NCBI GenBank assembly: GCA_949879795.1
Contig: CATLBR010000007.1
Location: forward strand, 1-64,000
Direction of reading: 5' to 3'
Origin: an uncultured Hungatella sp.
GTDB taxonomy: Bacteria > Bacillota > Clostridia > Lachnospirales > Lachnospiraceae
DNA length: 64,000 bases
A model generated the notes under the pieces. It was not told where the DNA came from. It saw only the letters and a list, made by a program, of their open reading frames with translations, and ran no database searches. Shown here in pieces: positions 58,126 to 60,963 of this stretch; the first letter of the stretch is position 1; each line of letters starts with the position of its first letter. The position numbers and the translations under genes are program-made.

Positions 58126-59544
58126 TCAGTAGGCATTCTTATTGATAAAACCCCTGAAGAATGTGAGAAGCAGGATTCTGAAATCCAAGCCCATCGTCCA
58201 GTTCTCAATATAGTACAGGTCATGTTCTATTCTCTTTGCTATGGAAGTATCTCCCCGGTACCCGTTGACCTGGGCCCACCCGGTCATCCCCGGTCGTACC
58301 TGATGCTTGATCATATACCTGGGAATCTCCTCCTTAAACTTCTCCACAAAAAACGGCCTCTCCGGCCTGGGCCCCACCAGACTCATATCTCCCCTGAGCA
58401 CATTTAGAAACTGGGGCATCTCGTCGATGCTGGTCTTGCGGATAAAACGACCCACAGGCGTCACTCTGGAATCGCCCGGGGTGGTCCACCGGCTTTTTTC
58501 CGCAGACGGCGGCTGCACCTCCATGGAACGGAACTTGTACATCTTAAAAGTCCGGTTGTGGAGCCCCACCCGCTCCTGACAGTAGATCAGCGGCCCCGGA
58601 GACGTAAGTTTAATAAGGATAGCCGCCAACAGCATGACGGGAGAAAACACCACAAGTCCGACTATAGAACCCGCGATATCCACCGCCCTCTTCATCACCT
58701 TGTTGGCAGTCTCGTTGAGAGGCACATGCCGGATGTTGATCACCGGCAGCCCCATAAGATCTTCCATATAAGGTTTTGTGGGAATCACATTGTTGTAATC
58801 CGGTATAAATTTGGTGTGAACTCCCGACTTTTCACAGGAAGCCACAATACATTCCAGCTTCGCGTACTCCCCGATGCCCAGAGTGATGGCGATCTCGTCC
58901 AGAGTGTTCAGCGCCAGAATAGAATCCAGCTGGGCGATGGTCCCGACCACCTTAACCCCCTTGTACTCCCGTCCCACAAAGGCAAAATCGTCCAGGATAC
59001 CATAGACCCTGTACCCCCACTCCGGATTGTACCTGACCCGGTCGATAAACCCTTCCGCCGCCCTGCTGTAACCGATGAGCAGTATGTGCTTCTGATTATA
59101 CCCTTTGCCCCGCATGGACCGGAGAATCTGGCGAATCACATTCCTCTCCACCGTCTCCGCCACAAGATTAATCGCAAAGAAATAAAACACCATCCTCGTG
59201 GAATACTGCTGAAAATAAGGATTCTTTTTCAGCAGCAAAAGCAGCATGGAGATAATGAGAAGGCCTGTGAGATTAGCCTTGCAAATATTCGCGAATTCAT
59301 ATCTGCGCTGCTGCACCCTCTTAGGCGTATACATATGAAAGAATGCATATAAAACCAGGTACAGCGGCACAAGAACAACGAGGACAGAAAAATAAAACTC
59401 GGGTGACAGAAGCTTTTTCTCAGGACTGAACATCTGATTGCCCAAAAACAGCACCAGCCACCCGCAGGTATACGACAAGATCACCACCAGCGCGTCCAGC
59501 ACAACATGGAGAGTGTTCAGCTTTTTCTGGTTAGCTTTTATCAT
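58126..59544 (-). CDS. Polyprenyl-phosphate glycosylphosphotransferase (WbaP-like)
   Basis: Membrane enzyme of 472 aa that begins polysaccharide chains by moving a sugar-1-phosphate to undecaprenyl phosphate. Four helices (within 1-130), a nucleotide-binding-like domain (about 140-260), a fifth helix and the catalytic domain: KFRSM, SIDEMPQFLNVLRGDMSLVGPRP and QVRPGMTGWAQVNGYRG. The sugar (glucose, galactose or another) cannot be read off. AAGGTG precedes the ATG. It is downstream of the structured intergenic RNA candidate and upstream of the LCP gene. Confidence 0.95.
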   Translation of the reverse strand: MIKANQKKLNTLHVVLDALVVILSYTCGWLVLFLGNQMFSPEKKLLSPEFYFSVLVVLVPLYLVLYAFFHMYTPKRVQQRRYEFANICKANLTGLLIISMLLLLLKKNPYFQQYSTRMVFYFFAINLVAETVERNVIRQILRSMRGKGYNQKHILLIGYSRAAEGFIDRVRYNPEWGYRVYGILDDFAFVGREYKGVKVVGTIAQLDSILALNTLDEIAITLGIGEYAKLECIVASCEKSGVHTKFIPDYNNVIPTKPYMEDLMGLPVINIRHVPLNETANKVMKRAVDIAGSIVGLVVFSPVMLLAAILIKLTSPGPLIYCQERVGLHNRTFKMYKFRSMEVQPPSAEKSRWTTPGDSRVTPVGRFIRKTSIDEMPQFLNVLRGDMSLVGPRPERPFFVEKFKEEIPRYMIKHQVRPGMTGWAQVNGYRGDTSIAKRIEHDLYYIENWTMGLDFRILLLTFFRGFINKNAY

Positions 59545-59585
59545 GAATTTTCACCTTAGTATTAATGTGCTGCCATATTTCATCT

Positions 59586-59591
59586 ATTATA
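59586..59591 (-). promoter_or_regulatory. -10 element before the glycosylphosphotransferase gene
   Basis: Minus-strand TATAAT at 59586-59591, about 42 bases before the ATG, with a TG directly before it but no good -35 element. It may be a second, weaker promoter behind the structured leader. Confidence 0.4.
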
Positions 59592-59650
59592 CATGAAAAT
59601 ACCAGACCAGACATTAAAATTCTCTTAAGAAAATATATGTTTTCATTTTG

Positions 59651-59919
59651 GGGGGAGCGGTGACAGGTCCGCCTGGGAGTGTTCCTGTTCCCGTCCGAGG
59701 CATTTATCCCGCCAACCGAAACGCTTTTCCCCACTCCCCCGGATCCCCTCCCGAAAGGCCCCCGCTTTCCCGTGGCTTTCCTCCGAGCCTGCCAGAATAG
59801 TAGTCCAGGAGAGACTTGTATTCCCAATGAGGGGCATTTGACCCGCCGGTCCTTAGTTCGCGTCTTTTGCGAGCTTAGTACCGCTGCAGGGTAGTCGAAA
59901 ACACGCCCCTCTTAAAGCA
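59651..59919 (-). ncRNA. Candidate structured leader RNA or ncRNA
   Basis: About 270 bases of hairpin-rich, non-coding sequence follow a strong promoter. The 5' part folds as one long helix: GAGGGGC (59905-59911) with GCCCCTC (59829-59835), then nested GAC..CCC/GGGTC, CGGT/ACCG and TCGC/GCGA (59858-59872), with a near-symmetric ACTAAG/ACTAAGG internal loop. Next is a hairpin GAATA/TATTC plus AGTC/GACT (59795-59823), then GGGAGTG/CACTCCC (59675-59738) closing a 50-base loop. The 3' end is not defined, and I see no clean terminator. It is either the long leader of the glycosylphosphotransferase operon or a separate small RNA. I cannot assign it to a named family. Confidence 0.55.
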
Positions 59920-59925
59920 GAATAT

Positions 59926-59954
59926 AGTATAGCTCAGCTTCCGGGAATATTCAA
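59926..59954 (-). promoter_or_regulatory. Promoter of the structured RNA candidate
   Basis: Minus-strand TTGAAT (59949-59954), 17 bases, then TATACT (59926-59931). Transcription should start near 59919, just before the first long helix. The -35 element abuts the stop codon of the upstream glycosyltransferase gene. Confidence 0.75.
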
Positions 59955-59955
59955 C

Positions 59956-60963
59956 CTAAAATTTTCTTAATGCCTTGTTGGCCTGGCGCCTGGAGAATTC
60001 GCAGATGTAGATGAGTGTTCCCCATATAAGCTCCCACTGAATGGCCAGATAATTGCCCAGGTTCTCCTTTCGGTAAACTACTTTCTGACATGTCCCGGCG
60101 GTGGAGAACCCTTCCCTAAGGCCTTCCGTGTACGCCTTGTCAAATCCCAGCTTCTTGAAAAATCCGTATTTCACCCCGATGCCCAGTGCCAGAGGCAGCC
60201 CATTGACCAAAAGCTGAGGCCAGGGCATGTTTTTGTAATTCACATAAATGTTGTTCCGAGCCGCCAGCTTCACCTTGAAATCGTTGTACTTTGAGCCGCT
60301 GGTGGCGCTCCCCAGGTGGTACACCACCGCAGTTGGACAATACAGATTGTGATACCCGAAAATCTTGGCCCGGTAGCACACATCGATGTCCTCCAGATAG
60401 GCGAAATGCTTCTCGTCAAAATAGCCGATGGTCTCAAACACCTTCCTACGGTAGATGGCCGCCCCTGCGCAGGCAGAGAACACTTCCTTTGGACGGCAGT
60501 ACCTTTTCACACTCTGTCCCACGCCCCTCTGGTAAGCCCATCCAAGCAGCGAGTACATGTCCCCTGCGCTGTCCATCAGCTCCCTGTTGTGGAACTGAAC
60601 CATCTTGGCGCTCACCGCGAAAATCTTCTCCGAGCGGCTGATGGACCGTATCAGCTCCCCCACAAACTCCTGCTCTGCCTGGGTATCGTTGTTGAGCAGA
60701 ATCACATAGGGAGTTTTTGAAGCCCGGATCCCCCGGTTGACGGCTCCGGAAAATCCGGTGTTGGTCTCCAGAAAGATCCCGGGAATGCCCTGCTCTTTTA
60801 TCCACCCCACGCTGCCGTCCGTGGAGCCGTTGTCCACGATCAGTATATCAAAATCTCTGCATTTCTGTCTCTTTAAGGCCTCTATACATGGCTTCAAAAA
60901 AGAAAGACCGTTGTAGTTGGGTATCACTACCGTCGCCTTACGCCGTCTGTCTTCCGTCATCAT
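59956..60963 (-). CDS. Family 2 glycosyltransferase (rhamnosyltransferase-like)
   Basis: GT-A-fold glycosyltransferase of 335 aa. Nucleotide-sugar motifs VVIPNYNGLSFLKPCI, VDNGSTDGSV and the DxD-equivalent LLNNDTQ are clear, followed by the acceptor-side stretch HFAYLEDIDVCYRAKIFGY. This pattern is that of WbbL/RfbF-type rhamnosyltransferases. The C-terminal 100 residues carry a hydrophobic, membrane-associated part. It is the last of three linked transferase genes, its start overlapping the preceding stop by 4 bases (ATGA). The sugar is not established. Confidence 0.92.
   Translation of the reverse strand: MMTEDRRRKATVVIPNYNGLSFLKPCIEALKRQKCRDFDILIVDNGSTDGSVGWIKEQGIPGIFLETNTGFSGAVNRGIRASKTPYVILLNNDTQAEQEFVGELIRSISRSEKIFAVSAKMVQFHNRELMDSAGDMYSLLGWAYQRGVGQSVKRYCRPKEVFSACAGAAIYRRKVFETIGYFDEKHFAYLEDIDVCYRAKIFGYHNLYCPTAVVYHLGSATSGSKYNDFKVKLAARNNIYVNYKNMPWPQLLVNGLPLALGIGVKYGFFKKLGFDKAYTEGLREGFSTAGTCQKVVYRKENLGNYLAIQWELIWGTLIYICEFSRRQANKALRKF

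Follow-up and report, generated by a model that had tools for sequence, protein, structure and literature searches.

What is the long hairpin that lies behind a promoter in the large gap between two glycan genes of the window (the whole stretch of 64,000 nucleotides analysed here)? A sequence-only reading had proposed an antitermination leader, a riboswitch or a free non-coding RNA. We find that conserved leader RNA, riboswitch and free ncRNA readings are not supported and that the hairpin, with a probability of about 0.88, arose by insertion of a non-autonomous transposable element of the foldback (MITE-like) kind and has since decayed.

The locus and its promoter

The features of the locus are as follows.

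58126-59544, minus strand: downstream neighbour, bacterial sugar transferase (Pfam PF02397)
59586-59591, minus strand: TATAAT between element and sugar transferase gene, in all 14 relatives compared; candidate promoter
59620-59701, plus strand: putative remnant of a second half in inverted orientation, covering its outer end and 5' arm; from local alignment to a G003 element
59622-59630, minus strand: TCTTAAGAG, copy 2 of a candidate target duplication, agreeing with copy 1 at 7 of 9 bases, possibly by chance
59631-59908, no strand assigned: probable inserted element of about 278 bp, decayed, with ends uncertain by about 10 bases; absent in six relatives having the promoter and the downstream motif
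59802-59924, minus strand: match to covariance model R1, head and inner arms, of which the first bases may be flank; 56.9 bits, E = 6.4e-17
59829-59835, minus strand: GCCCCTC, 3' strand of helix P2, pairs with 59905-59911
59844-59856, minus strand: CTAAGGACCGGCG, 3' strand of the head, common to copies in other genera
59874-59887, minus strand: GCAGCGGTACTAAG, 5' strand of the head, common to copies in other genera
59905-59911, minus strand: GAGGGGC, pairs with 59829-59835 and overlaps the candidate element boundary; family helix P2 covaries
59909-59917, minus strand: CTTTAAGAG, copy 1 of a candidate target duplication, agreeing with copy 2 at 7 of 9 bases, possibly by chance
59926-59954, minus strand: promoter TTGAAT-17-TATACT, outside and probably older than the inserted element; kept exactly in 7 of 14 relatives
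59956-60963, minus strand: upstream neighbour, family 2 glycosyltransferase (Pfam)

The gap between the two glycan genes is present as claimed, with both neighbours on the minus strand, and so is the near-consensus promoter, which matches 9 of 12 consensus bases at 59954-59926. Among the sites of 14 relatives, both hexamers and the 17-base spacing were unchanged in seven (G003, G006, G010, G011, G016, G022 and G024), in which the spacer bases have diverged at constant length. In the other seven (G001, G007, G012, G014, G019, G020 and G021) the promoter was missing and the genes lay closer together. Because the promoter is kept in half of these relatives, the window hairpin is probably transcribed as part of a 5' leader. 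The TATAAT at 59591-59586 was also found in relatives that lack the upstream promoter. Placed before the sugar transferase gene, it is perhaps the main promoter.

Fold of the window copy

The helix formed by GAGGGGC and GCCCCTC is present, with 59911-59905 opposite 59835-59829. ACTAAG does stand on both sides of the internal loop described within it, but this 'loop' is mostly paired, CUAAG opposite CUAAG giving four pairs around one A·A mismatch. Two further helices had been drawn downstream and were not borne out: the stretch 59925-59545 folds no more than modestly better than its shuffles (z = -1.78), 4 of 100 of which equal it. No family had been recognised from the letters of the window, and Rfam 15 likewise returned none, either for the window at the gathering threshold, with the covariance models of tmRNA, raiA and EAR included, or for 59400-60100 at E up to 5. 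The structure of 59924-59802 nevertheless exceeds chance, since it scores 56.9 bits against the model of a covarying family.

Part of the stretch downstream of the main helix resembles a remnant of a second, inverted half. Read on the plus strand, 59620-59701 aligned locally with a G003 element at a score of 45 (maximum 31 in 60 shuffles); among the ten elements tried, L002, L006 and L019 also scored slightly above their own shuffle maximum, and L003 exceeded its own by 1.5. On the strength of the alignment with the G003 element, we read the window locus as a decayed inverted pair, in which the head with its 3' arm lies on the minus strand and the putative remnant of the second half on the plus strand. 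The head of the window copy is intact and one outer arm is largely gone; terminal inverted repeats are not clear in this copy.

Six relatives keep the promoter without the element

In G003, G022, G010, G011, G016 and G024, the promoter and the downstream motif are present, the spacer is short and the element is missing. A single TTAAGA motif lies between promoter and gene in relatives such as G003, the promoter of G003 leading directly into TATACTATACCCAATCTTAAGATAATTTTAATG. In the window, the element stands between TATACTATATTCTGCTTTAAGAG and TTTTCTTAAGAGAATTTTAATG, and about 278 bp (59908-59631) are enclosed by two TTAAGAG motifs, with 7 of 9 bases equal. Because relatives keep the promoter without the element, the element probably inserted behind an older promoter; the comparison suggests that it probably landed between this promoter and the sugar transferase gene. 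No R1 match was found in the window loci of nine relatives, and in G001, G012, G019, G020 and G021 the space between the genes is too short for a unit. In G006, the place of the element is taken by a different repeat (about 175 bp). This repeat matches three places in the G011 locus L291 at 76-85% identity, around a Y1 transposase gene, and that locus looks like a RAYT-type arrangement.

A second way of drawing the insert, with the promoter inside it and a 14-bp direct repeat (59615-59628 and 59957-59970) as the target duplication, was ruled out: G006 and six others share the promoter. That drawing had been suggested by G001, G019, G020 and G007, in which the two neighbour genes abut.

Filled and empty sites were found at other loci as well. 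Between era and recO, about 270 bp fill the space in G003, while 20-26 bp separate the aligned ends in G022, G006, G014 and G007; gaps in other genomes range from 37 bp to 3 kb. Between leuB and ilvD, the space is filled in G007, while the gap measures 2 bp in G000 and 9 bp in G006. Beside the era-recO element lies a second repeat of about 75 bp (L027:1620-1694), with matches of 74-87% identity in G000, G003, G004, G007, G008, G016 and G022.

Copies and distribution of the family

BLAST with 59891-59782 gave five further matches in the window genome (80-93% identity), bringing its total to six copies. Among 61 genomes, comprising this one and its relatives, six had matches (G022 15, G003 10, own genome 6, G036 3, G007 2 and G033 1). 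The exact head pattern was found in at least 118 stretches of named contigs, and most of the 80 matches listed carry the label Lachnospiraceae or that of genera within it. It was not found in viral contigs; searches with one Eisenbergiella element against plasmids and with one G000 element against phages gave no match. Under strict filters, with at most 17 candidates scored per genome, R1 matched 85 of 200 family genomes, or 84 of 199 genera, at E up to 1e-6, and in 299 genomes of the phylum (11 candidates scored each) it gave four matches, all in Lachnospiraceae. When 150 candidates were scored, copy numbers were at least 140 in E. tayi (G547), at least 131 in G145, 46 in G202, 31 in CE91-St56 (G546), 17 in G022, 16 in G224, 9 in G003 and 6 in the own genome.

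The median element length was 181.5 bp over 102 copies, most being about 120 to 325 bp long, and the longest arms measure about 120 bp. Convergent pairs of units, about 150 to 600 bp apart, and tandem arrays are also found; the G145 loci L306, L307 and L308 hold head-to-tail arrays spaced 187, 164 and 139 bp. Copies are mostly intergenic, 69 of 82 having no overlap with an ORF of 90 aa or more. The flanking genes of 82 copies elsewhere lay in mixed orientation (++ 26, -- 30, +- 17, -+ 9), and the right-hand gene was on the element's strand in 35 of the 82, so that copies do not keep a fixed position upstream of a gene. No neighbour gene recurred when 1,026 ORFs of 137 loci were clustered: the broadest group, which its start sequence marks as ABC-transporter ATPases, reached 11 loci, at distances that differed. 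Among 19 loci from genomes with few copies, 6 were touched by one cluster of unassigned ORFs.

Ends and target duplications

Elements of Eisenbergiella carry the terminal inverted repeat GGGTGYAGATAAAAA at both ends. With at most two mismatches, this repeat occurs 166 times in CE91-St56 and 108 times in E. tayi, the reversed sequence that served as a control occurring 38 and 44 times. After the repeats had been noticed at a few copies, 31 end-bounded elements of less than 500 bp were chosen among the matches listed, which hold at least four further close end pairs outside this set; 13 of the 31 are 238 bp long. A 9-bp target duplication with at most one mismatch was found exactly at the ends of 15 (perfect in 8), compared to a mean of 0.5 and a maximum of 3 when the ends were paired at random, and widths of 8 and 10 bp were found in 2 and 1. 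The other 16 have no duplication within one mismatch at the exact ends. Four headless palindromes of 60-91 bp (L348-L351, CE91-St56) share the ends of the 238-bp elements and have no head, and in two of them 8 of 9 bases are duplicated.

In G022 and G003, five elements of 288-522 bp, three of which contain two units, are bounded at both ends by repeats resembling ATGCTTTTTCGTTCAGG; their target duplications are weak or lacking. For 89 copies with ends defined by their arms, the duplication test gave a mean of 5.70 versus 5.34, with 5.67 the highest of 100 shuffles, which is a small excess. Target duplications are thus clear in Eisenbergiella only, and the candidate in the window agrees at 7 of 9 bases. 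No transposase gene was recognised between the ends in eight G022 and G003 stretches, whose ORFs were judged by eye, nor, from ORF starts, in a 3.8-kb CE91-St56 stretch between two end repeats.

These ends bear on two other ways in which the palindromes could spread. The units might be oversized REP/BIME-like palindromes mobilised by an HUH (Y1) transposase of the RAYT kind, in keeping with their inverted pairs and tandem arrays, their mostly intergenic position and a hairpin foot that, read by eye, is often CCGTC...GACTAC in the window's genus, similar to REP tags. However, units are several times longer than REPs of 20-40 bp, and Y1_Tnp (PF01797) was found in 10 of 26 genus genomes (including G015 and, with stops, G007) and gave no match in G000, G003 and G022 (completeness 65, 97 and 88%), which have the highest copy numbers in the genus. 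HUH chemistry also does not fit end repeats with 9-bp duplications, and we consider such a mobilisation very improbable. A single-strand recombination site of the attC type, handled by a tyrosine recombinase, would likewise have a folded head with mismatches and long arms, and the tandem arrays in G145 would suit it; the 9-bp duplications point to other chemistry and no neighbour gene recurred in the 137 loci, making this the least credible of the explanations that we weighed.

Covariation and pairing of the arms

Do the arms pair as RNA or as DNA? From 113 pattern copies with flanks, 92 remained after near-duplicates were removed, 69 fell in common spacing classes and 60 were aligned. On a hand-drawn structure of 39 pairs, and with spacing classes whose choice favours agreement with it, 83.2% of cells were paired (65.4% when shuffled), 454 cells were changed on both sides (shuffled 167) and the covariation score was 0.441 (0.155 when shuffled, at most 0.167 for slid versions of the structure). 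The number of pairs with a change on both sides was not above that of shuffles (29 versus 27.1, reached in 46 of 500). Head positions were preset by the search pattern and their invariance in the alignment is by construction; freely varying pairs still covary, as columns 44/84 do (C-G 34, U-A 26). Before curation, the alignment of 92 copies yielded almost no structure in RNAalifold (-5.9 kcal/mol). Against Rfam, eight loci with other copies had no more than four sub-gathering hits (MIR7533, mir-44 and ssnA twice), which we judged to be chance. A bacterial palindrome at L067:4804-5062 was matched by MIR7533 with E 3e-20, below the gathering score.

We then counted the kinds of pairs along both arms in 100 elements, with an alignment that relied solely on Watson-Crick matches and with related copies weighted equally. 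G·T was found 129 times and A·C 146 times (p = 0.33), beside 4,687 Watson-Crick pairs and 480 mismatches of other kinds. In contrast, ten tRNAs from the same loci, used as a control, had 206 Watson-Crick pairs, 21 G·T and no A·C. In the family alignment, P1-P3 had 21 G·T versus 33 A·C, and P4 with the head 4 versus 2. The preference for G·U over A·C that marks the helices of functional RNA was hence not found in the element arms. Since G·T is no commoner than A·C, unlike in tRNAs, the complementarity of the arms seems to be kept at the DNA level. The compensatory base changes on which the sequence-only reading had let its RNA stand or fall are abundant, but they fit a DNA hairpin better.

A cis-acting leader RNA for the sugar-transferase transcript from the promoter at 59954-59926, be it an antiterminator, a riboswitch or an element since co-opted as one, would account for the promoter kept in 7 of 14 relatives, for the helix and for the covariation of the family. 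The conserved promoter is what stood of that proposal. Yet relatives have the same promoter without the hairpin behind it, copies elsewhere lie in mixed orientation, the arms have no wobble preference, and neither a recurrent neighbour gene nor an Rfam match was found; such a leader is very unlikely, though it comes first among the four alternatives that we set against the insertion. A family of multicopy, trans-acting small RNA genes would explain the conserved head and the compensatory changes, but not the lack of G·U preference, arms of up to about 120 bp or copies that are insertions, and we regard it as exceedingly unlikely.

The head and the arms

Seventeen elements of CE91-St56 were compared part by part, with these differences per site: arms 0.115 and 0.105, ends 0.050 and 0.053, head strands 0.016 and 0.047, P3 0.021 and 0.011, P4 0.047 and mini-hairpin 0.085. 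Between lineages, the head can still be recognised when outer arms and ends no longer can, in copies that were found by their heads. This contrast of head and arms is the unusual part of the element. Variants of this region were also seen: the 255-bp elements L333 and L342 have 17 extra bases just ahead of the mini-hairpin of the head, and L003, L020 and L029, from the window's genus, have about 40 extra bases between mini-hairpin and head, forming a common inner hairpin.

Our leading guess is that the head is retained through protein recognition of folded DNA. More tentatively, and rather unlikely as a whole, the head could be a conserved DNA structure that a Lachnospiraceae protein reads folded, as a single strand or a cruciform, and the true heritable unit, with changing arms and ends that exploit a resident transposase. 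If so, what defines this mobile element would be a folded DNA head and not the ends, and over evolution the head would have recombined into, or grown, different arms and end repeats.

Discussion

The decayed foldback insertion that we favour can be pictured as follows. The intact unit is a long imperfect palindrome with a structured head at its centre, on whose end repeats a transposase, probably of the cut-and-paste (DDE) type, would act in trans. The head is probably not the binding site of this transposase, because headless forms of 60 to 91 bp keep the ends and two of the four have 8 of 9 bases duplicated. Complementarity of the arms is probably maintained at the DNA level, either because a single-strand hairpin or a cruciform is under selection or because repair involves template switching. 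The window element would have landed between the conserved promoter and the sugar transferase gene, where it is probably transcribed as a passive leader, and would since have been worn down, with one outer arm and the greater part of its second half gone.

The repeat family occurs in about two fifths of the sampled genera (84 of 199) of Lachnospiraceae, a major gut family, and a search of open-licence PubMed Central literature found no description of it. Because it passes a covariation test and fails a wobble test, it would mislead RNA-discovery pipelines. It is also a clean case in which to study the survival of long DNA palindromes and the upkeep of their complementarity, and hairpins that land between a promoter and a polysaccharide gene could rewire operons.

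Among known systems, structured RNA families (Rfam 15) share the strong covariation, and the element differs from them in that the window has no match and G·U is not preferred. REP/BIME sequences with RAYT, as described in the available parts of PMC3733652 and PMC8266576, are similar in being palindromes between genes, with inverted pairs, clusters and alternative complementary stem bases. In contrast to REP/BIME as presented in those parts of PMC3733652, the element is several times longer and has 9-bp target duplications, and three copy-rich genomes of the genus are without a Y1 transposase. The same parts give the REP tags as GTAG/CGTC, describe GT pairs as frequent in REPs, which is not so in the element here; that paper has no occurrence of Clostridi or Firmicutes.

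The closest likeness is to MITEs. The family is short, lacks coding capacity and is multicopy (up to at least 140 copies), and in Eisenbergiella it has both terminal inverted repeats and a target-site duplication. Bacterial MITEs such as QMITE2, as far as the available sections of the review PMC10969869 describe them, are likewise short, non-coding, multicopy and intergenic, with a long stem-loop, terminal inverted repeats and direct repeats of 7-9 bp; Lachnospir, Clostridi and Firmicutes have 0 occurrences in that review. Unlike the MITEs described there, the element has a central head that is common across genera while outer arms and end repeats are lineage-specific, and its arms stay complementary through compensated changes.
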